DNA from: a virus
Strand: one strand, 5' to 3'
DNA length: 23,633 nucleotides
IMG/VR virus record: IMGVR_UViG_3300021962_000660
Span: 1-23,633 of that record
Numbering within the stretch: the stretch's first letter is position 1; each line of letters begins with the position of its first letter. Position numbers and translations under genes: made by a program. Below the pieces are notes generated by a model. That model was not told where the DNA came from and ran no database searches. It saw only the letters and a list, made by a program, of their open reading frames with translations. Below are positions 4,187 to 14,782 of this stretch, one piece after another.

Positions 4187-4395
4187 TGAAAAAAGAAGAT
4201 AAAGTGCAATCTGAAGTAGTTGAATATATATTAGAACAAAAGGTAAAAAAATATCAATATACTGTTGCTCAATATTTTTTAAGGTTTATTGGTTTAGGTA
4301 CATTAGTTTTTTCTAATGACCCAGTACAAATGTTACCTATCGCAGCAGTGATATTAATGTTTGGAGAAGCCGCTGGAGCAACAAGGGATTTATGA
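4186..4395 (+). CDS. Small membrane protein, unknown
   Basis: A 69-residue protein with a strong ribosome binding site (AGGAGG about 8 bases before the ATG). A charged N-terminal helix (residues 1-~28, many Lys/Glu) is followed by two hydrophobic stretches (about FLRFIGLGTLVF and MLPIAAVILMFG), separated by a short SNDPVQ turn, suggesting a helical hairpin in the inner membrane. I do not recognise a family. It sits between thyX and the sugar dehydrogenase and overlaps the latter by four bases, so it is translated from the same message. A role in membrane takeover is possible, but nothing in the sequence shows it. Confidence 0.65.
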   Translation: MKKEDKVQSEVVEYILEQKVKKYQYTVAQYFLRFIGLGTLVFSNDPVQMLPIAAVILMFGEAAGATRDL

Positions 4396-5153
4396 TGCAA
4401 GGTTATCGTACAATGAATTATGGTTTTTTAGGATATGGCTATGTAGGTCGAGCAACTTATGATATAGTTGCTAATTCAGTTAACAGTCATGGTATAATAC
4501 ATGATATCGCACATAACTCTTCTAGAGATGATTTAGCAGATTGTGCTGTGGTATTTGTTTGTATACCGACTGTTACTGATGAAGATATTGATACAGTAAT
4601 ATTTGAAATAAAAGAACTCAAGAAATTAAACCCATACAATACAATAGTTGTTCGATGTACACTCCCCCTTGGCTCTTGTGACAGGATACAGCGAGAGACT
4701 GGAGAGAAAATCATATACTGGCCGGAATTCCTGAGAGAACAACATTTTGATGCTGATAAAGTCAAACGACCATGGGTTATTGGACACGATGGTGTAGACT
4801 TACCTAAGTTTATTATCAATGACGAGTATATAGAAGTATCTACTAAAGAAGCAGAACTAATTAAGATGTTTTCTAATAACTTAGGAACAATGCGTGTTGC
4901 TTTTGCTAATCTATTTTATGATTTGGCTGAAAAAGTTGGTGCCGATTATAATAAAGTTAAAGATGCTTATCTAGAAGTCCAACAAAATCAATCTTATCTT
5001 GATGTTCCAGGATATGATGGTAAGAAAGGATTTGGCGGTAAGTGTTTGCCTAAAGACCTTGATTTCTTAATTGACACACTAGACCAGAATGATGTTGACT
5101 CGATGATGTTTAAGGCAATCAGAGAATTGAATGAAGAGTGGAGAAATGAGTGA
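4392..5153 (+). CDS. Short UDP-sugar dehydrogenase (UDP-glucose/GDP-mannose dehydrogenase family)
   Basis: A nucleotide-sugar dehydrogenase with Rossmann motif GYGYVG (14-19) and the catalytic cysteine motif GFGGKCLPKD (Cys218). The family oxidises the C6 hydroxyl of UDP-glucose or related sugars to the acid with two NAD+. At 253 residues it is far shorter than cellular enzymes (390-450) and lacks the third, UDP-binding domain, keeping only the NAD and central dimerisation domains. The start is uncertain: ATG 4392 (ATGA overlap, AGGG at 4384), ATG 4395, or ATG 4413, which begins directly at NYGFLGYGYVG as most relatives do. The neighbouring oxygenase, carbamoyltransferase and epimerase suggest a sugar-tailoring set. 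Activity without the third domain is unproven. Confidence 0.85.
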   Translation: MMQGYRTMNYGFLGYGYVGRATYDIVANSVNSHGIIHDIAHNSSRDDLADCAVVFVCIPTVTDEDIDTVIFEIKELKKLNPYNTIVVRCTLPLGSCDRIQRETGEKIIYWPEFLREQHFDADKVKRPWVIGHDGVDLPKFIINDEYIEVSTKEAELIKMFSNNLGTMRVAFANLFYDLAEKVGADYNKVKDAYLEVQQNQSYLDVPGYDGKKGFGGKCLPKDLDFLIDTLDQNDVDSMMFKAIRELNEEWRNE

Positions 5154-5635: not shown

Positions 5636-6282
5636 GTTTTTTAGTACACAATCTACCACCAATACACGTTTATGTAAAGAAAGAATATCTCTATGACTTA
5701 CAAAAAGGACATGGTGACTTAACACCAGGCGTTTGGATATCTGTTAAGTCAATACAAGGTAGAGCATTATACTTTGAAACATTGTTGACTGACTATGGTG
5801 CTTTATATGATAAATTACCACTATCTGCTTTCGTATGGAAAACTGACTATGATAAAAAGAATCAGTTACCTCTAGACACATTACAGATATGGGATTGTTT
5901 TGATTATGACATAACAGTTATAAAGAAACCTTTACTTGCGAACTGCGAGTTCTTTGGTAAAGATAAAAAGATGCATAAAGGTGAATATCTCTTTACAATA
6001 GATAATTGTCATAGAGATAACAGTACACTTGATACAAACTTTAGTGAATATGATCCAGAGCATAAATCATTTAATGTAATCAAATTAGACAATGGACAAT
6101 TTGCGGCACAACCAAATAATAGAGTTGTATTCTCAGACCAGAGTTTAACACTAGATGAAACATTAACACCAGACTTTAAAGTTTGTACACAAAACTATGT
6201 TGTAGAAACTACACCTAAATGGTCAGTCGGACATACTGATGAATGGCAATATAAAACAAAAGATGAAGATAGTAGGAGTTAG
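5632..6282 (+). CDS. Conserved phage protein, unknown function
   Basis: A 216-residue soluble protein starting with an ATGA overlap. It has no signal peptide or membrane segment and no motif I recognise. It looks beta-rich and contains a well-defined N-terminal half (LPPIHVYVKKEYLYDLQKG, then DYGALYDKLPLSAF, then a Trp/Asp/Tyr-rich segment around LQIWDCFDYDI). Its C-terminus is overlapped by 20 bases (or 44, depending on the start chosen) by the carbamoyltransferase gene. Proteins of this look occur in marine T4-like phages, but I have no function to offer. Confidence 0.65.
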   Translation: MSFLVHNLPPIHVYVKKEYLYDLQKGHGDLTPGVWISVKSIQGRALYFETLLTDYGALYDKLPLSAFVWKTDYDKKNQLPLDTLQIWDCFDYDITVIKKPLLANCEFFGKDKKMHKGEYLFTIDNCHRDNSTLDTNFSEYDPEHKSFNVIKLDNGQFAAQPNNRVVFSDQSLTLDETLTPDFKVCTQNYVVETTPKWSVGHTDEWQYKTKDEDSRS

Positions 6283-7594
6283 TGAAGGATTCCACGATGC
6301 GTCTGTAACAATACTAGAAGATAATAATATTGTTTATGCAGGTCATTCTGAAAGATACAGTCGTATAAAGAATGATAAATGGATTCACAAAGACCAACCA
6401 ACTGCTGGTCATTACTTTGCGTATTATGAGAATCCCTTTCTAAAAAATACAAGACTATGGTTTAGTGGTCAGAAAAAAGAACCACTTCGACACAAATTCA
6501 ATTTCAAATTTAAACATCACGAGTCACACGCGGCCGCAGGATACTATACAAGTCCATTCGAAGAATGTAATATATTAGTTATTGATGCTATTGGCGAATG
6601 GGATACGATTAGTATATGGAAGTCGTATCAAGACTATAACTTTTCTAAAATTAAAAAGATAAAGTCTTGGAAATATCCATACTCGCTTGGTCTTTTATAT
6701 TCATCTATAACTCAACGCATAGGATTAAAACCAAACGAAGAGGAATATATTACTATGGCTATGGCATCCTATGGCGAACCAAAGTATGATTTAGAATTTC
6801 TTTTACATCAAAACAATCATAAAGGATGTGGTGATATATTTCCAAATGCCAGAAATGAAGACTTGGCGGCAAGTGTACAAGCATTATATGAGAAGAAGTT
6901 ATTAGAACTTGTTAGTAAATGTCCTTCAAATAATTTAGTATTGATGGGTGGTTGTGCTTTAAATTGTGTTGCTAATTCTAAAATAAAAAAGAATCTTTGG
7001 ATTATGCCGAATCCTGGAGACGCAGGTAGTTCGCTTGGTGCGGCTGCACTTGTTCTCGCACAAAAACTAAATTGGAAAAGTCCATATCTTGGATATAATA
7101 TAGAAAGAGATATCAATCCTGCAGAAGTTGTCAGACATTTATTAGAGCATGGTGTTTGTGGTGTTGCTAATGGTAAAGCAGAGTTTGGACCAAGAGCATT
7201 GGGTAATCGTTCTTTACTAGCCGATCCAAGAAAAGATATTAAAGATACAGTTAATGATATAAAGAAACGACAGAGATATAGACCATTCGCTCCTGCTATA
7301 CTAGAAGAATATGCTGAAAAATATTTTGATGGACCGATGAATGAGTATATGCAGTTTGTAGCAAAAGCAAAGCATGATTATAAATCGGTAACACATATTG
7401 ATGGGACAGCTAGAGTACAGATAGTCAAGAAAGATTGCGAGTCAGTTATAAGACCTATACTTGAAGAATGGCATAGAAAGACTAAGTGTCCTATGTTATT
7501 AAACACAAGTCTAAATATAAAAGGACAACCAATAGTCAACAATGAGAATGATGCAAGTGAATTTGAGAAAGTAAATAATGTCAAAGTCTTCTAA
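6263..7594 (+). CDS. Carbamoyltransferase (NodU/CmcH/TobZ family)
   Basis: A protein of 443 residues from the ATG at 6263, where the family's usual N-terminus (here MKIVGVSEGFHDAS) begins; an in-frame ATG at 6239 would add eight residues, and neither start has a clear ribosome binding site. Motifs: HHESHAA (85-91, the metal-binding HxxxH of the Kae1-like domain), YITMAMASYG, LMGGCALNCVANSKI, then the C-terminal YrdC-related motifs FGPRALGNRSLLADPR (about 308-323), RYRPFAPAILEEY and LLNTSLNIKGQP. Family enzymes activate carbamoyl phosphate with ATP and transfer the carbamoyl group to a hydroxyl on sugars or antibiotics. It is shorter than the usual 530-610. A sugar attached to DNA or an envelope glycan is a plausible acceptor; the former would tie it to the cassette at 9505-13222. 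Confidence 0.9.
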   Translation: MKIVGVSEGFHDASVTILEDNNIVYAGHSERYSRIKNDKWIHKDQPTAGHYFAYYENPFLKNTRLWFSGQKKEPLRHKFNFKFKHHESHAAAGYYTSPFEECNILVIDAIGEWDTISIWKSYQDYNFSKIKKIKSWKYPYSLGLLYSSITQRIGLKPNEEEYITMAMASYGEPKYDLEFLLHQNNHKGCGDIFPNARNEDLAASVQALYEKKLLELVSKCPSNNLVLMGGCALNCVANSKIKKNLWIMPNPGDAGSSLGAAALVLAQKLNWKSPYLGYNIERDINPAEVVRHLLEHGVCGVANGKAEFGPRALGNRSLLADPRKDIKDTVNDIKKRQRYRPFAPAILEEYAEKYFDGPMNEYMQFVAKAKHDYKSVTHIDGTARVQIVKKDCESVIRPILEEWHRKTKCPMLLNTSLNIKGQPIVNNENDASEFEKVNNVKVF

Positions 7595-8408
7595 AATAGT
7601 AGTATCTGGTGATAGTTTTACTGCTAACGACCATTATCCAGTGGAAGATTTTACTAACTTAGGATTTTCAATAGAAGATTTAAAGTATCCTTTGCCGAAA
7701 TATACTTCTTGGCCATTATTACTCCAAGAAAAATTAAAAACTCCTGTTATAAACCTAGCACGATCAGGTATGGGAAATTATTATATATGTAAAAGTGCTA
7801 CAAATGCAATAGTAGAAAACTATGGTAAAGTAAAATTATGTATCGTTGCATTATCATCTTGGCATAGAATGGAAACTACAAAATGGGATTCTATACCAGC
7901 CATTAAATTATTTGATTATGAAAAAAATAAATTTATTGTTTCAGATTATGATTTAACCACTATTATGAATAATACTCTCAGAAGTATATATGAGTTACAA
8001 TTGATTTGTAACCATTTAAATATTCCTTTAGTATTTTTTAATATGATAATGCCTATACCAAATTTACGCAATTATTTAAATACTCATATATCAAATCTAG
8101 GAGAACCAAAACCAATAGAAATACAAAAATATATTTTTAAGTTTATCGTTGAAAATCCTTACTTTAATTTAATAGATTCTAAGTATGCAATAGGGTGGCC
8201 TTTTTTTGATTTAATAGGTGGATATAATTTTTTACAAAGATATATTTTATCCGACAAAAATAAATATTGCGTGGGACCAATGCAAAAATTAATAGAACGA
8301 AATACACCTGAATTTAAATATTATTATGACCATCATCCAAATCAAGAGGGACATAAGTTGATATTTGAAAAAGTTATTGAAAACCTAGAGAAGTTTAAAC
8401 TAATATGA
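7578..8408 (+). CDS. SGNH/GDSL hydrolase-like protein, copy 1
   Basis: A 276-residue protein with the SGNH block I GDSF (11-14, nucleophile Ser13), block III-like GMGN (about 64-67) and block V-like DHHPNQEGH (Asp251, His253). SGNH proteins are esterases, lipases or O-acetyl/acyl transferases acting on lipids and carbohydrates. Oddly the last block reads DxHP rather than the classical DxxHP. A clear paralogue is at 13388-14278; both share the strings around LRSIYELQ, NPYFNLI and IGWPF, so they form one family whose C-terminal half is not typical of ordinary esterases. No signal peptide is present, so it probably acts in the cytoplasm, perhaps acylating or deacylating a sugar. It overlaps the carbamoyltransferase gene by 17 bases. 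Confidence 0.75.
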   Translation: MSKSSKIVVSGDSFTANDHYPVEDFTNLGFSIEDLKYPLPKYTSWPLLLQEKLKTPVINLARSGMGNYYICKSATNAIVENYGKVKLCIVALSSWHRMETTKWDSIPAIKLFDYEKNKFIVSDYDLTTIMNNTLRSIYELQLICNHLNIPLVFFNMIMPIPNLRNYLNTHISNLGEPKPIEIQKYIFKFIVENPYFNLIDSKYAIGWPFFDLIGGYNFLQRYILSDKNKYCVGPMQKLIERNTPEFKYYYDHHPNQEGHKLIFEKVIENLEKFKLI

Positions 8409-8509
8409 AAATAAGTATTTACAAATATTATATTATAATATATTATAACTTATTAAAGAATAAGTTGTTGAGAAAAAAACAAGATGACGACCCAGATTTT
8501 ATTTACTAA
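8405..8509 (+). CDS. Possible 34-residue small protein
   Basis: An ATG overlapping the previous stop (ATGA) opens a 34-codon frame ending in TAA at 8507-8509. The N-terminal half is rich in Ile/Tyr/Leu (SIYKYYIIIYYNLLKN), the C-terminal half is a basic then acidic tail (LLRKKQDDDPDFIY). Such very short, charged-tail proteins are common in T4-like phages. Against it, the same bases contain the AAGTATTTACAAA promoter element seen at two other sites here, and the hydrophobic codons are just what AT-rich noncoding DNA would give. Real translation is a little better than even. Confidence 0.4.
   Translation: MKISIYKYYIIIYYNLLKNKLLRKKQDDDPDFIY
8413..8446 (+). promoter_or_regulatory. Sigma70/early-type promoter, weak -10
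   Basis: AAGTATTTACAAA (8413-8425) is identical over 13 bases to the elements at 9440 and 12008. TTTACA (8418-8423) is the -35; 17 bases later lies TATTAT (8441-8446), a one-mismatch -10. It overlaps the possible 34-codon gene at 8405. It could drive the exported-protein genes at 8611 and 9040, but the terminator-like hairpin at 8559 lies between. Confidence 0.5.
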
Positions 8510-9439: not shown

Positions 9440-9473
9440 AAGTATTTACAAACCCACATAAATATTATATAAT
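9440..9473 (+). promoter_or_regulatory. Sigma70/early-type promoter of the TET/JBP operon (copy A)
   Basis: AAGTATTTACAAA at 9440-9452 contains TTTACA (9445-9450), then exactly 17 bases, then TATAAT (9468-9473): a near-consensus sigma70 promoter of the kind T4-like phages use early. The start would be about 9480, leaving a ~25-base leader with GGAG seven bases before the ATG at 9505. Nearly the whole 68-base region is repeated at 12008. Confidence 0.85.
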
Positions 9474-9507
9474 AATAACCATAGAATAATAATGGAGTAT
9501 AAGCATG
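9440..9507 (+). repeat. Duplicated promoter-leader, copy A
   Basis: From the -35 region to the start codon this stretch matches 12008-12074 almost base for base, including the identical end TAATAATGGAGTATAAGCAT before the start-codon G. Only a few scattered bases in the spacer and leader differ. The two copies precede the TET/JBP gene and the cupin gene. Confidence 0.9.
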
Positions 9508-10911
9508 ACTGAAACAATTGAAATTAATGGTCACAAATGGCTAAAGTCTAAGGGAGACGAAGGACAAGATGTTTATGTTGCTCAATTCGCCTTAGACGAA
9601 GATAAAGTATTAGGAAAGTATGTTGACGAAACTTCTTACGACATACTTGTTGAAAACGATACAGACTTTTATTTACCAACCAAATCAGTAACAGGAGACG
9701 ATACACTAAGCGAAGACGATGTTGCTTTTAAGTTTCGTAAGAATGTATTTACACCCGAAGAACAAGCTGGTGCTGTAGAAGGATTATATGATGCGGCTGG
9801 TGAATCAAATAATAGAGGACACGCGGCTGGTCCAAGAGCTGAAACGAATGGTGGTAGAGATTGGGTTACACCATATCAAGCTGAAGTATTAGATTACTAT
9901 ATTAAAGGACAGCCAGAAACTGTCGATGGTACAGATCCTCTAGAATCAATTAAAAAGAAACATGAAGCTGGTAAATACGAAACTCGTGGATCAGTATGGT
10001 TACGAGGTAAAGTTGAAGATGCTTATGGTGAATATTCTACTTTCTTCGGTACTTTGATGGAAGAACTAAAGAGTATGAGTGTTCCAGAAGCAATCAAAAC
10101 TGCTAAGAATGTAAAAGATAAATTTATATCAGATACTTCTTATGCTACACCGATCTGGTCTGGTATTGCTGGTTTCTATGGTAGATATCCTCGTATACCA
10201 TATGGTCGTGCTACTTCTTATGTAGAACACAATATGGAAAAATTTGAAAAGAGTTATCCTTTTGCTAGAAAACTAGAAGCAGAGTTTAAAAGAATGATGC
10301 CAGTAAGATGGGGTCGTCAAAATGTTTATGCTGAACAAATGGATAAGAAGTTTCTAATTGGTGAGGATACTACATTTACAACTATAACTGTAAATACTAC
10401 AACTGCTGATAGGAATGCTCGTATGGCATGCCATCGTGATGCTGGTTCATTAAATCCAGGATTCTCAAATCTAACAGTTGTAACGAAAGATGGTAAGGGA
10501 TGGCAGGGTGGTTATCTTGTTGCTCCAGAAGTTAGAGCCGCAATTAACTGTAGACCTGGAGACTTATTACTTATTGATAATATGAGAGTAATACATGGTA
10601 ACACTCCTATATCAGCTCCAGAAACTGGTGATGCTGACTTTATGAGAATGTCACTCGTATATTATTTCCGTGAAGATATGGCTAATCTAGGAACTTGGGA
10701 TTATGAGCAAACAAGAAGACAGTTCGTTGACGATCGTAGACTTAATAAAGACCATACTCTTTGGCGAGAATACTGGAATGGTGTATCTCCTAACATGTGG
10801 GATGAACAAGAATGGTATGACTATCTTTCTGATAAAATGGGTGCTGATGTTTTAAAAGAATATCATCCTAAAGCAGTTGAAGAGAAATCATCACTAGACG
10901 AATTTTTCTAA
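9505..10911 (+). CDS. TET/JBP-family 2OG-Fe(II) dioxygenase (pyrimidine 5-methyl hydroxylase)
   Basis: A 468-residue protein whose residues ~290-395 match the TET/JBP core: TTITVNTTT, then His310-Arg-Asp312 (iron ligands), GFSNLTVV, GGYLVAPEV, INCRPGDLLLIDN, distal His364 (VIHGNTP) and Arg381 in RMSLVYYF. The Arg-x-Ser-Leu-Val-(Tyr/Phe)-Tyr motif, 17 residues after the distal His, is the arrangement seen in TET2 (Arg1896, Ser1898). TET/JBP enzymes oxidise the methyl of 5-methylcytosine or thymine in DNA to hydroxymethyl. The N-terminal ~285 residues are not recognised and may bind DNA or partner proteins. The gene has its own promoter, strong GGAG site, and is followed 18 bases later by a sugar nucleotidyltransferase. 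No cytosine methyltransferase is in the window, so the base substrate (5mC or T) is open. Confidence 0.82.
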   Translation: MTETIEINGHKWLKSKGDEGQDVYVAQFALDEDKVLGKYVDETSYDILVENDTDFYLPTKSVTGDDTLSEDDVAFKFRKNVFTPEEQAGAVEGLYDAAGESNNRGHAAGPRAETNGGRDWVTPYQAEVLDYYIKGQPETVDGTDPLESIKKKHEAGKYETRGSVWLRGKVEDAYGEYSTFFGTLMEELKSMSVPEAIKTAKNVKDKFISDTSYATPIWSGIAGFYGRYPRIPYGRATSYVEHNMEKFEKSYPFARKLEAEFKRMMPVRWGRQNVYAEQMDKKFLIGEDTTFTTITVNTTTADRNARMACHRDAGSLNPGFSNLTVVTKDGKGWQGGYLVAPEVRAAINCRPGDLLLIDNMRVIHGNTPISAPETGDADFMRMSLVYYFREDMANLGTWDYEQTRRQFVDDRRLNKDHTLWREYWNGVSPNMWDEQEWYDYLSDKMGADVLKEYHPKAVEEKSSLDEFF

Positions 10912-10929
10912 TAGTTGTGTTGAGTTGTT

Positions 10930-12009
10930 ATGAAAACTTTAGTTATACCCATGGCTGGGTTGGGTTCCAGATTCACAAAAGCAGGATTTAATGTTCACAA
11001 ACCTTTGATTGAGGTAGATGGGATACCATTAATTAGACACTCCATAGATTCTTTAAATTTAAGCGATGAATGGAGTGTCGTTCTAATTGCTAGAGATCTT
11101 GGTAAAGGATACAAAGAAGAAGTCCAAGAAAAAATTCCTGAGGGAAAATTTATTTGGATTGATGAGTTAACTGGTGGTGCTGCTGAAACTGCATTATTCG
11201 CTTCTGAATTAATAGATCCAAAAGACGAACTTATTATAACGAACTGCGACCAATATCTAGATTGGGATGTTAATGACTTTCTTACAAAAAGTAGAGAAAA
11301 AGGTGTTGCTGGTTCTGTTCTAACTTATAAATCAAAAGATCCTAAAAATTCATTTTGTCGTTCAGATAACACAGGAAAAATATTTGAAATAGTTGAAAAG
11401 AATCCTATATCTGAAGAAGCATTAGTTGGATTACATTGGTGGAAACAAGGAAACGATTTCATAAGTACAGCTAGAAAATTGGTTAAAGAATGTCCTAAAG
11501 ATAGGGAATCTTATATCTCTGAAACTTATTCTTACCTAATCAATAAAGGCAACACCATAAAATCTATTCCGATAAAAGGAAAATATTGGTCGCTTGGCAC
11601 ACCTGAAGACTTCTATATCTTTAAAGGTTATCTTGCTGAGTTTCGTATGGCTAAACCAAGAACCTTCTTTATAGATCTAGATGGAACAGTTTTAATGCAT
11701 GGTCATCGTTATTCTAACTTATATAAAGGACAAGAAGCATGTCCTGGTGTAGTAGAAGCATTAGATGAATTAGATTCTCTTGGGCATAAGATAATATTAG
11801 TATCTGCTCGTAAAGAATCATCTCGTAAATTTACCGAAGAAAATTTAGCAAGACTTGGTATTCCTTATGACCAACTTATATTAGGAGTTTCTCAAGGAAA
11901 AAGAGTAGTGGTAAACGACATAATATCTGAAGCAAGTGCTCCAAGAACAGGTACCGTAGATGTTATAACTGATAAAGGTTGGCAATCAAGGATGTTATTA
12001 GAATGTTAA
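10930..12009 (+). CDS. Sugar-phosphate nucleotidyltransferase fused to HAD phosphatase
   Basis: A 359-residue two-domain protein. Residues 1-~237 are a GT-A-like sugar nucleotidyltransferase: PMAGLGSRF (7-15) with HKPLIEVDG after it, ITNCDQYLDWD as the metal-binding strand, and KYWSLGTPEDFYIF at the domain end. Residues ~243-359 are a HAD hydrolase with the nucleophile motif DLDGT (Asp249, Asp251), ILVSARKES as motif II and GKRVVVNDI as a reduced motif III/IV, closest to capsule-type HAD phosphatases. Together they could dephosphorylate a sugar bisphosphate and activate the sugar-1-phosphate as NDP-sugar. It follows the TET/JBP gene by 18 bases without its own promoter or clear ribosome binding site, suggesting it makes the donor for base glycosylation. 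Confidence 0.85.
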   Translation: MKTLVIPMAGLGSRFTKAGFNVHKPLIEVDGIPLIRHSIDSLNLSDEWSVVLIARDLGKGYKEEVQEKIPEGKFIWIDELTGGAAETALFASELIDPKDELIITNCDQYLDWDVNDFLTKSREKGVAGSVLTYKSKDPKNSFCRSDNTGKIFEIVEKNPISEEALVGLHWWKQGNDFISTARKLVKECPKDRESYISETYSYLINKGNTIKSIPIKGKYWSLGTPEDFYIFKGYLAEFRMAKPRTFFIDLDGTVLMHGHRYSNLYKGQEACPGVVEALDELDSLGHKIILVSARKESSRKFTEENLARLGIPYDQLILGVSQGKRVVVNDIISEASAPRTGTVDVITDKGWQSRMLLEC

Positions 12010-12041
12010 GTATTTACAAACGAACAAAAATATTATATAAT
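12008..12041 (+). promoter_or_regulatory. Sigma70/early-type promoter of the cupin-glycosyltransferase operon (copy B)
   Basis: AAGTATTTACAAA (12008-12020) contains TTTACA (12013-12018), a 17-base spacer and TATAAT (12036-12041). The geometry is identical to the promoter at 9440. The -35 side overlaps the stop codon of the preceding gene. GGAG lies seven bases before the ATG at 12072. Confidence 0.85.
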
Positions 12042-12074
12042 AATAACATAAACTAATAATGGAGTATAAGCATG
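12008..12074 (+). repeat. Duplicated promoter-leader, copy B
   Basis: The second copy of the ~68-base promoter/leader at 9440-9507, ending at the start-codon G of the cupin gene. Conservation is continuous from -35 to start codon, which points to recent duplication or strong selection for identical timing and translation. Confidence 0.9.
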
Positions 12075-12407
12075 AGTGAAGTTGAAAAATATAGAATAGA
12101 AGATTTTAAAGGTGGGTGGTTTATAGGAAACTTTGAACCTTCTTTATTTAAAACAAATGAATTTGAATGCTCAATCAAACTACATCCTAAAGGAGAAGTT
12201 TGGGAAAAGCATTATCATAAAATTGCTAAAGAATATAATTATGTCTTTAAAGGTATAGTTGAAATAGATGGTCAAGAATACAAAGAAGGGGATATATTTG
12301 TTATCAATCCAGGATTTGTAGTCGATCCTATATTCAAAGAAGATTGTACAATTTGTTGTATTAAAACACCTTGTGTCATAGGAGATAAGTATGAGGTGGA
12401 AAGATGA
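12072..12407 (+). CDS. Cupin-fold protein
   Basis: A 111-residue single cupin. Motif 1 reads EKHYHKIAKEYNYVFKG, giving the His-x-His-x(n)-Glu metal ligands; motif 2 is GDIFVINPGFV, where the usual histidine is missing. Small cupins include sugar epimerases (RmlC-like), isomerases and metal-binding sensors. A tyrosine/histidine-rich single cupin beside a glycosyltransferase and sugar nucleotidyltransferase fits a role in sugar isomerisation or epimerisation (FdtA-like), but this is inference. It has its own strong promoter and ribosome binding site, and its stop overlaps the start of the glycosyltransferase gene (ATGA). Two cysteines near the end (CTICCIKTPC) are unusual for the family. Confidence 0.75.
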   Translation: MSEVEKYRIEDFKGGWFIGNFEPSLFKTNEFECSIKLHPKGEVWEKHYHKIAKEYNYVFKGIVEIDGQEYKEGDIFVINPGFVVDPIFKEDCTICCIKTPCVIGDKYEVER

Positions 12408-13222
12408 TTATTGTAATCCCAACATACTTAAGAGAAGATAATCAAAAAGCATACAATAATTTACCTAAAGAAATACAAGAGAAAGTTATTTTAGCTACAC
12501 ACAGTGGTCGTGGTAAACTTTTACAAGAAGAAAATCCAACAGCTAATGTTCATGAATGGGATGGAGAACTTAAAATACCAGGAGTGAGAAAAGCATGTAT
12601 GGATCTTGGTGAAAAAGTTTTAATAATGGATGACCAGTGTATCTTCTATAAAAGAAGTTATCTAGAAGATAAAATTAAACATATCAAATTGACTGAAGCA
12701 TCAGAATATAATGATATGTTTAATGAAATCGAAAAAGAATTAGATAACTACTTTTGGGTTGGACCCTCACCTAAATCAAGTAACACCTTACATAAAGAGT
12801 CTCGCTCCGAGATAATTCGTTCCTATTCATGCTATGGAATAAACTCTGATATGATAAAAGGTGAGGGAGTCCGATGGTCTGCATTAGAAGATAAAAATCC
12901 AGAAGCAACTATACTAGAAGATTTTTATGTTTTGTTGTCTATGTTTAGTAAAGGATATAAGAATTTAATGTTACATAATTGGGTCTTTGACCATAAGCAT
13001 GGTATGAAAGGCGGAAACTCTACCAGTAGAAACAATCAAAGACAAGAACAAAGTCAGTTGGAACTTATGAAACATTTTCCTAACATAGTAACACAATACG
13101 AAAAAGATAATCCATCTTGGGTTGCTGAAGAAGGTTCTACTTCTAGAACTGAGATAAGAGTTGCTTGGAAAAAAGCATATGAGTTATCACAAACCCAGAG
13201 TTTAGATTCATTTTTTAATTAA
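12404..13222 (+). CDS. Candidate TET/JBP-associated glycosyltransferase (DNA base GT)
   Basis: A 272-residue protein with a GT-A-type beginning (VIPTYLRED), a conserved turn IPGVRKACMDLGEKVLIMDDQ holding the acidic metal-binding pair Asp-Asp at the end of a beta strand, ATILEDFYVLLSM in the position of the catalytic acidic segment, and a C-terminal HKHGMKGGNSTSRNNQ ... HFPNIVTQYE ... region. This order resembles the TET/JBP-associated glycosyltransferase (TAGT) family, whose kinetoplastid member glucosylates hydroxymethyluracil to base J. Lying one operon away from a TET/JBP oxygenase under the same type of promoter strengthens the call. It is translated with the cupin (ATGA overlap). A different GT-A glycosyltransferase acting on glycans cannot be excluded from motifs alone. 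Confidence 0.65.
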   Translation: MIIVIPTYLREDNQKAYNNLPKEIQEKVILATHSGRGKLLQEENPTANVHEWDGELKIPGVRKACMDLGEKVLIMDDQCIFYKRSYLEDKIKHIKLTEASEYNDMFNEIEKELDNYFWVGPSPKSSNTLHKESRSEIIRSYSCYGINSDMIKGEGVRWSALEDKNPEATILEDFYVLLSMFSKGYKNLMLHNWVFDHKHGMKGGNSTSRNNQRQEQSQLELMKHFPNIVTQYEKDNPSWVAEEGSTSRTEIRVAWKKAYELSQTQSLDSFFN

Positions 13223-13235
13223 TGAGGAGGAAAAT

Positions 13236-13391
13236 GTGCCAAAAAATTCAAAACGTCACGACTCTTCCATGCTAGCCGCATGGGCGAGACAATATGGTAT
13301 AAAAGGTTACGAACAGTTTGACCCAAAATACAAACAACAACAAATTCAAAAAGCATTAAAAGATACTCATTTAAAGTCAAAGAAGAAATGA
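13236..13391 (+). CDS. 51-residue basic protein, GTG start
   Basis: A very strong site GAGGAGG (13224-13230) precedes GTG at 13236 by five bases; this frame runs 51 codons (MPKNSKRHDSSMLAAWARQY..., ending HLKSKKK) to a TGA overlapping the next gene's ATG. The ATG at 13234 is out of frame and hits a stop after 13 codons, so GTG is the likely start. The protein is basic and hydrophilic, with a central AAWARQYGIKGYEQFDPKY segment that could fold as a small helical domain. A nucleic-acid-binding role is possible by charge only. It links the glycosyltransferase gene with SGNH copy 2. Confidence 0.7.
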   Translation: MPKNSKRHDSSMLAAWARQYGIKGYEQFDPKYKQQQIQKALKDTHLKSKKK

Positions 13392-14278
13392 AAAATATAG
13401 TAGTTTGCTCTGATAGTTTTGGTGATTATGACTACAATTTATTTGATTCCAAAAAATATTCAGAACGTTGGAAACTCACGAAAGAATATGAAAACAATAA
13501 AACTATGCCAGCAATACCCTCTTATGATTGTTGGCCTGTTTTATTAAACAAAGTATTAAACAAAAACATAGTTAATCTTTCTGTAAAAGGTTACGGTAAT
13601 TTAGCAATATGTAAACAAACTCAAGACTATGTTATTCAAAATTATAAGGATATAGATTTCTGTATTGTTGGACTTACCAGATGGGATAGAGTTGAAGATT
13701 CTCTTTTAAACAGAATGGGTAAAAAAGGAGCAGGTTCATCCTATGTTTATTCTAAAGGATTAGTTAAATCAAGCAATCTTAATGGAACTTATTATTATAG
13801 TGATTATAAGAATCCAGAAAGAGAATATTTTTTAGAAGAATTTAATTATAAAAAAAAGTCTATGTTAGTGTACTCTACACTAAGGTCAATATTTGAATTA
13901 CAAAAAACTTGTGAGGAGTATAATATAAAATGCATTTTTATAAGCCTTTTAAATCCTCTACCATCTAATCCTGCTGAGGGATTCAATTTAATAACAATTC
14001 ATAAGATTCTAAACACTATAATAAGAAATCCTTATTTCAATTTAATTAATACTCAATATTGTATCGGTTGGCCTTTTATATCTTTATTGGGTGGTTTTAA
14101 TATTTTTGATAAATATTTTAGAAACAAACCCAGTTATCTTATAGGTGAAACTTATCAAATCGATGACAAATACAAAGTTAAAAAAATGTGGGATTCGCAT
14201 CCTAATCAAAAAGGACATAATCTCATATGCGAAAAAATCATAAATGAATTAAATAATCTTGGAGTTATAGATTCGTAA
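13388..14278 (+). CDS. SGNH/GDSL hydrolase-like protein, copy 2
   Basis: A 296-residue paralogue of 7578-8408. Block I is SDSF (8-11, Ser10), where the first Gly of GDSF is replaced by Ser; GYGN follows as block III, and WDSHPNQKGH closes the protein (DxHP as in copy 1). Long matching strings include the LRSIFELQ helix, NPYFNLINTQYCIGWPF and LLGGFN. It has an insertion relative to copy 1 around residues 115-150 (Lys/Tyr/Ser-rich). It shares an ATGA overlap with the 51-residue protein and so ends the cupin-glycosyltransferase operon. That makes an acyl esterase or acyltransferase acting on the cassette's sugar possible; no signal peptide is seen. Confidence 0.75.
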   Translation: MKNIVVCSDSFGDYDYNLFDSKKYSERWKLTKEYENNKTMPAIPSYDCWPVLLNKVLNKNIVNLSVKGYGNLAICKQTQDYVIQNYKDIDFCIVGLTRWDRVEDSLLNRMGKKGAGSSYVYSKGLVKSSNLNGTYYYSDYKNPEREYFLEEFNYKKKSMLVYSTLRSIFELQKTCEEYNIKCIFISLLNPLPSNPAEGFNLITIHKILNTIIRNPYFNLINTQYCIGWPFISLLGGFNIFDKYFRNKPSYLIGETYQIDDKYKVKKMWDSHPNQKGHNLICEKIINELNNLGVIDS

Positions 14279-14338: not shown

Positions 14339-14782
14339 ATGAAATTAGACCTAGGAAACCCAATCGTAACAGTTCTCGTTGGTTTAGTAGTATTCTACAT
14401 AGGACTAAAAATGTTCTCTGGTGGAATGAAATCAATGGGTAATATCGAACATCTTCAATTCTTTCTCGGAAACCCAATCTATATGTTCTTTGGTGGTATT
14501 GTTATGACCTTGTTGTGGCAATCATCATCATTGTCAACTACTGCCATTATCGCACTCGTGGCGTCTGGTGCTTTACCATTACCAGCGGCGATTGCTTGTG
14601 TACTTGGTGCGAATATCGGAACAACTGGAACGATATGGTTAGCAGGTTTATTAGTATCTGATGGTATGCCCAAAGGTGATACATTACGAATCGCTATGAT
14701 GCATACTGGTGCTAATTTGGCAATGGCAATCGCATTACTTCCATTCGTACATCACATTGCTAAATTTTTAGGAAAGTTCTAG
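14339..14782 (+). CDS. Half-size Na+/phosphate cotransporter-like membrane protein
   Basis: A 147-residue integral membrane protein with ribosome binding site AAGGAG about 8 bases before the ATG. It carries the two signatures of the Na/Pi-cotransporter II (NptA/YjbB, PF02690-type) repeat: QSSS (61-64) and GANIGTT (90-96), with ASGALPLPAAIA between. Four to five hydrophobic helices are visible. Cellular members have two such repeats in opposite orientation; here only one is present and the gene is intact, not followed by a remnant of the second. It could work as a homodimer or boost host phosphate uptake during infection. A virus-borne phosphate gene fits phosphate-poor oceans, but transport activity is inference. 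Confidence 0.85.
   Translation: MKLDLGNPIVTVLVGLVVFYIGLKMFSGGMKSMGNIEHLQFFLGNPIYMFFGGIVMTLLWQSSSLSTTAIIALVASGALPLPAAIACVLGANIGTTGTIWLAGLLVSDGMPKGDTLRIAMMHTGANLAMAIALLPFVHHIAKFLGKF

Follow-up and report, generated by a model that had tools for sequence, protein, structure and literature searches.

The 23,633-nucleotide stretch analyzed here (the window) is the entire virus record IMGVR_UViG_3300021962_000660, and its positions 9,440 to 13,222 hold four genes that are predicted, with a probability of about 0.72, to form a DNA hypermodification cassette coupled to replication, in a marine phage that is T4-like and related to the Kyanoviridae. The four open reading frames (ORFs), all on the + strand where an earlier note on this DNA had placed them, encode a TET/JBP dioxygenase, a sugar-1-phosphate nucleotidyltransferase (NTPT) fused to a HAD phosphatase, a cupin-like protein, and a TET-associated glycosyltransferase (TAGT). 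The main new result, absent from the earlier note, is that the dioxygenase and the TAGT end in a common L-x-x-F-F peptide, which strongly suggests, by its sequence, that both enzymes dock on the phage sliding clamp. The features that carry this result are:

9505..10911, + strand: TET/JBP-family Fe(II)/2-oxoglutarate dioxygenase, 468 residues (PF12851, invariant residues, fold)
10432-10440 (H310/D312), 10594-10596 (H364) and 10645-10647 (R381), + strand: TET active-site codons
10891..10908, + strand: SLDEFF tail of TET, putative sliding-clamp-binding peptide
12404..13222, + strand: TAGT with GT-A fold, 272 residues (PF20691, fold, alignment)
12629-12634 (DD) and 12917-12922 (ED), + strand: TAGT acidic motifs
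13199..13219, + strand: SLDSFFN tail of TAGT, putative sliding-clamp-binding peptide

The TET ends in EEKSSLDEFF and the TAGT in QTQSLDSFFN, and among the 36 ORFs of the window only these two carry the strict tail. A search with the TET sequence alone returned five contigs, and a profile search returned no fewer than 589 stretches; the analysis used the 80 best loci, so that the sample leans toward near relatives. The LxxFF tail ends 78 of 82 TET relatives in this sample. It also ends, in its strict form, 56 of the 1513 non-TET ORFs of TET loci, against 0.54 expected when the last 12 residues are shuffled, and the carriers are DNA polymerases (13), TAGT-type proteins (13), GNAT (11), ADDT (10), GT4 glycosyltransferases (4), a 195-residue protein (3), and singles (2). 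Counted without redundancy per family, the strict tail is found in 60/65 TET, 9/11 polymerase, 11/11 TAGT, and 3/3 GT4 proteins, and in none of the epimerase, CTP-transferase, GATase, amidoligase, NTPT-APH, HAD, gp46, gp47, helicase, or clamp-loader families of the TET loci. The terminal L, F, and F are invariant in 14 TAGTs whose cores fall to 21% identity.

The tail is of the same kind as the C-terminal peptides by which replication and transcription proteins of T4-type phages hold the clamp. In phage C48C1, a member of the Kyanoviridae, the DNA polymerase ends in ATLEDFFG and the TET in SLEEFFV; in T4, gp43 ends in KASLDFLFG and gp55 in PSLDFLYEAND, which SLDEFF and SLDSFFN resemble position by position. 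These T4 C-termini, and likewise that of gp33, bind the clamp and can stand in for one another; in gp55 the linker is divergent (PMC2988020). Homologues in phages with other replisomes (the TAGTs of LuckyBarnes and ctUhy936, the TET of HTVC112P) stop at the enzyme core without a tail. In the AlphaFold models of both window enzymes the ends have low confidence, and the final residues form a short helical turn; a docking peptide would be expected to look like this, yet it is no evidence of one. Since both DNA-acting enzymes end in the clamp-type peptide of the polymerase, the phage probably modifies its DNA during copying. Searches of the open-licence literature brought up no account of phage TETs or TAGTs with a clamp tail in common. 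As a separate observation, a Dam-like methyltransferase gene adjoining the polymerase gene of C48C1 (33480-34364, just upstream of locus L001) encodes a protein ending in STLDAFFG.

The assignment of the 9505-10911 ORF as a TET/JBP dioxygenase is established by profile, residues, and fold, and oxidation of 5-methylpyrimidines in DNA is the predicted activity. The ORF scores 48.7 bits with PF12851 (Tet_JBP), above the cut-off of 34.9 (E 6e-13). The H310-x-D312, H364, and R381-x-S-L-V motifs lie where the earlier note had read them, and all 35 relatives compared have the same residues at H310, D312, H364, and R381. The AlphaFold model (predicted local distance difference test, pLDDT, 83.2) is a TET-type double-stranded beta-helix that aligns best with TET2, NgTet1, CMD1, and CcTet at Z scores of 15 to 17, compared with at most 11.9 for AlkB types. 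The likeness to the family that includes TET2, NgTet1, and JBP1/2 thus consists of a hidden Markov model (HMM) match over the cut-off, the HxD...H...R site, and the closest solved folds; however, identity to the solved TETs is only 10-13%, and the window TET differs from known members in its long N-terminal region, its clamp-type C-terminal tail, and the absence of a methyltransferase partner among the genes found.

The TAGT ORF matches PF20691 with 34.3 bits against a cut-off of 27.5 and contains the IPGVRKACMDL...IMDD segment. Its model (pLDDT 85.2) has the GT-A fold and matches GT-A enzymes at Z scores up to 13.8, and residues D76, D77, E172, and D173 are invariant in 14 of 14 relatives. 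HMM match, GT-A fold, and DD and ED motifs are shared with a family that includes the beta-glucosyl-HMC-alpha-glucosyltransferase (HMC, hydroxymethylcytosine) of T2 and T6. The window protein differs from known TAGTs in its extra C-terminal LxxFF peptide and in its linkage to an NTPT, HAD, and cupin of its own. A further family resemblance is that the gene adjoins a maker of hydroxymethyl pyrimidine. In LuckyBarnes and ctUhy936, TAGT genes adjoin genes of the thymidylate synthase/pyrimidine hydroxymethylase type, with no TET at the locus. PF20691 matches at E 0.01 occur in 14 of 50 related TET contigs, and TET and TAGT genes are linked in many independent contigs. Both profile matches and both predicted structures agree with the expectations of the earlier note, and its proposal that the TET/JBP protein and the TAGT act as a pair that oxidizes and then glycosylates DNA is supported by the families, the folds, and now the tails.

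The remaining cassette features, which concern sugar supply and expression, are:

9440..9504, + strand: leader 1, before TET, promoter-like repeat TTTACA-17-TATAAT and ribosome-binding site
10930..12009, + strand: NTPT (~10930-11634) fused to HAD phosphatase (~11647-11934) (PF00483, PF03767)
12008..12071, + strand: leader 2, before the cupin gene, second copy of the promoter-like repeat and ribosome-binding site
12072..12407, + strand: cupin-like protein, 111 residues (Cupin_7 below cut-off, phrog_24762)

The TET and NTPT-HAD genes form one transcription unit, and the cupin and TAGT genes, which overlap by 4 bases, form the next. The leaders of the two units are near-identical over 65 nt. A 37-nt block at 9442-9478 and 12010-12046 has no mismatch to the common pattern (0.00 expected in shuffles) and contains TTTACA-17-TATAAT with an 11/12 match in each copy, and the likeness extends in the alignment past this block through the ribosome-binding site to ATGA. 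A shorter relative of the repeat lies at 8415-8446. Sigma-70-like sites are not enriched across the window (34, compared with 35.3 in shuffles), and it is therefore the exact repeat that supports the promoter claim; the matching promoters described earlier are real as a repeat and predicted as promoters. In contig L058 the cupin gene begins 2 bases after TET and is followed by TAGT, and on one reading of this arrangement the NTPT-HAD gene plus a leader copy may have been inserted between TET and cupin.

The fused ORF matches NTP_transferase with 36.7 bits (cut-off 21.2) and Acid_phosphat_B with 38.8 bits (cut-off 27), as well as the solved structure 4evw (E 3e-12), and its closest solved relatives are generic sugar pyrophosphorylases. 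The cupin ORF scores 23.9 bits with Cupin_7, below the cut-off of 27, and matches phrog_24762 at 7e-32. TET, TAGT, NTPT, and HAD recur together in phages DLP6 and S-CBWM1 and in contigs L079 and L137, with an APH-type kinase added in DLP6, S-CBWM1, and L079; dephosphorylation by the HAD, C1 phosphorylation by the kinase, and nucleotidyl transfer by the NTPT would together yield a nucleotide-sugar by salvage. Different phages probably use different sugars, since C48C1 and contig L087 carry a UDP-galactopyranose mutase gene beside TET. Sugar-nucleotide genes occur at 7 of 17 glycosyltransferase loci compared with 4 of 47 ADDT loci (Fisher p 0.005), a value that ignores relatedness and is for that reason used only as support. 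A small GDPD-like ORF without a Pfam match lies between the sugar genes and TAGT in L137 (9573-10001) and L138 (670-1119), and its homologue is gene 213 of cyanophage Bellamy. Elsewhere in the window, 4392-5153 encodes a nucleotide-sugar dehydrogenase that has its N-terminal and central domains but lacks the C-terminal UDP-binding one, and 6239-7594 encodes a carbamoyltransferase (PF16861/PF02543). The latter was considered as a cassette member and set aside because its family is common in cyanophages and C48C1 has the sole homologue (42%) among the TET loci and the four complete TET phages examined.

The identity of the modified base can be approached through the partners of this TET lineage. 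ADDT and/or P-loop kinase genes neighbor 47 of 82 TET loci and a glycosyltransferase gene neighbors 17, with both in none, and the payload state changes at least 10 times on the TET tree, a count that is approximate (quick tree, several open forks). In sister cassettes, this TET lineage is accompanied by ADDT, P-loop kinase, GNAT, and GATase genes; ADDT (PF18724) has no match in the window. Searches for a C5-methyltransferase (PF00145) gave no match in the window fragment, in 50 related contigs, or in the complete genomes of C48C1, DLP6, Cr30, and S-CBWM1, and no hydroxymethylase-type gene (PF00303) was found in the relatives tested, Cr30 excepted. The hypermodified thymidines of phages M6, ViI, and phiW-14 are thought to be made from 5-hydroxymethyldeoxyuridine (5hmdU) via a DNA kinase (PMC6449724). 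The absence of a C5-methyltransferase together with payload swapping favors oxidation of thymine to 5-hydroxymethyluracil (5hmU), as in base J, over oxidation of 5-methylcytosine (5mC), and thymine is the simplest substrate for one TET lineage that feeds both payloads. The earlier note had named no particular base.

Taken together, these features suggest the following mechanism. While the phage DNA polymerase, held by the sliding clamp, copies DNA, the TET and the TAGT would ride the same clamp over the new DNA, each through a short, poorly ordered linker ending in L-x-x-F-F, the kind of C-terminal peptide by which the T4-type polymerase, gp55, and gp33 hold it. The TET would hydroxylate a pyrimidine, in all likelihood thymine, at its 5-methyl group, giving 5hmU, and the TAGT would transfer a sugar from a nucleotide-sugar onto that hydroxyl, giving a base-J-like base. 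The NTPT-HAD protein, perhaps with the cupin, would make a dedicated activated sugar, and the benefit may be escape from host restriction or CRISPR. TET-TAGT DNA hypermodification was reportedly predicted by Iyer in 2013; what is new here is the polymerase-like putative clamp tail on oxygenase and transferase, the partner swapping within a single TET lineage, and the argument for thymine that follows from it. The broader proposal, that widespread marine T4-like phages run a modular clamp-docked line in which a thymine-hydroxylating TET and an interchangeable glycosyltransferase or amino-acid transferase, both equipped with the polymerase's clamp-binding peptide, make hypermodified thymine during replication, and that the window genes yield the phage's own version of base J, bearing a custom sugar, is judged to stand at about even odds.

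Several observations weigh against the proposed cassette. The strict tail is missing from the TAGT of the T4-like phage Muldoon and from the TET of S-CBWM1, and a similar xxFF-type end occurs on a baseplate-hub-like protein in C48C1 (115098-115805), DLP6 (135667-136368), and, as a variant, Cr30 (133694-134395). The alpha-glucosyltransferase of T4 binds the gp45 clamp, yet this binding left most of the in vivo glucosylation pattern unaccounted for (PMC13216743). The two payloads do not fully exclude each other, since Cr30 carries ADDT plus a weak TAGT-like gene, and the residue at HxD+3 (S or D), tried as a marker of base specificity, does not sort by payload. In Bellamy, genes of the NTPT-HAD, cupin, and GDPD-like types lie in a glycan-type cluster that lacks TET, which weakens the tie of the NTPT, HAD, and cupin to DNA. 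In addition, the window is a 23.6-kb fragment, and the phage's own polymerase, clamp, and any methyltransferase lie outside its view. The xxFF end of the baseplate-hub-like protein in C48C1 and DLP6 could mean that the tail docks a different partner, such as a phage assembly or transcription factor. This is very improbable, given that the DNA polymerases of these phages carry the same tail, that it parallels the gp43 and gp55 clamp peptides, that nearly all of its carriers are DNA-acting enzymes, and that homologues from phages lacking a T4-type polymerase end without it.

Two further alternatives leave the TET-TAGT pair intact and are each considered unlikely. The same cassette might act on 5mC, supplied by a methyltransferase of the host or by one of the phage that escaped detection, with the TAGT glycosylating 5-hydroxymethylcytosine (5hmC); this would follow the phage TET systems described in the literature and the di-glucosyl pathway of T-even phages. 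The characterized phage TETs of Burke in 2021 reportedly work on 5mC. In addition, the TAGT of T2 and T6 acts on glucosylated hydroxymethylcytosine (PMC13216743; PMC13390438), and the phage carbamoyltransferase family to which the 6239-7594 protein belongs modifies 5hmC and not 5hmdUTP (PMC8670742). However, that family is present in 143 phage records, compared with 9 records that have a TET match, and both the methyltransferase and PF00303 searches described above and the pairing of the same TET lineage with ADDT and kinase, whose chemistry is known on 5hmU, argue for thymine. Alternatively, the TET and TAGT may modify DNA, the TAGT drawing on a host nucleotide-sugar, while the products of the NTPT-HAD and cupin genes, and of the epimerase, sugar dehydrogenase, and carbamoyltransferase genes close by, belong to a different glycan pathway, for example one that decorates the virion or host surface. 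The Bellamy cluster is consistent with this division, as is the lack of a clamp tail on the NTPT-HAD and cupin proteins, but NTPT and HAD genes recur by TET/TAGT in differing arrangements in the window, L137, L079/L072, DLP6, and S-CBWM1, the cupin gene lies directly between TET and TAGT in L058, and both units of the window have near-identical leaders. The part of the earlier note that gave the NTPT, HAD, and cupin a place in the cassette thus has weaker support, from their interleaving with TET and TAGT in several contigs, and is qualified by Bellamy.

The proposed replication-coupled cassette can also be compared with three other known systems. With the T4 alpha-glucosyltransferase and gp45 it shares a DNA glycosyltransferase working with a sliding clamp; in T4, however, dCMP is hydroxymethylated before replication and the alpha-glucosyltransferase ends in FDIITK rather than a SLDFLF-type peptide, whereas in the window the oxygenase too is predicted to dock on the clamp. 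With kinetoplastid base J (JBP1/2 and JGT) it shares a proposed order of events in which a TET/JBP enzyme first oxidizes thymine in DNA and a sugar is then attached, and it differs in being of phage origin, in having a TAGT in place of JGT, in a sugar that may not be glucose, and in the predicted docking on the replication clamp. The sister cassettes of the window TET resemble 5hmU hypermodification (ADDT, aGPT-PPlase, and 5hmdU kinase in ViI, M6, and phiW-14), but in those phages 5hmdU enters DNA from the nucleotide pool, a step that TET would replace here, and the payload in the window is a sugar. If this model is correct, a post-replicative oxygenase and glycosyltransferase would keep pace with the phage fork by riding the clamp, and a thymine-oxidizing TET route would be added to the known phage hypermodification routes. 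A terminal LxxFF matching the phage's own polymerase could then serve as a sequence tag for new DNA-modifying enzymes in T4-like phages, and the existence of cultured relatives makes the cassette testable now.

Kinship of the window to C48C1 amounts to 73% in the helicase region (DNA) and 65% in TET (protein), and a near-identity DNA search found short stretches, chiefly of the helicase gene, in common with only 4 phage records. Near TET and a glycosyltransferase gene, contig L006 (3586-4965) and also L060, L070, L085, and L131 carry a GmrSD_N-like gene (PF03235, below cut-off), a possible reader of, or defense against, modified DNA. The cassette itself is flanked by genes at 7578-8408 and 13388-14278 whose proteins have similar openings, one of them weakly GDSL-lipase-like, and 14339-14782 encodes a Na+/phosphate cotransporter domain (PF02690), possibly an auxiliary metabolic gene.

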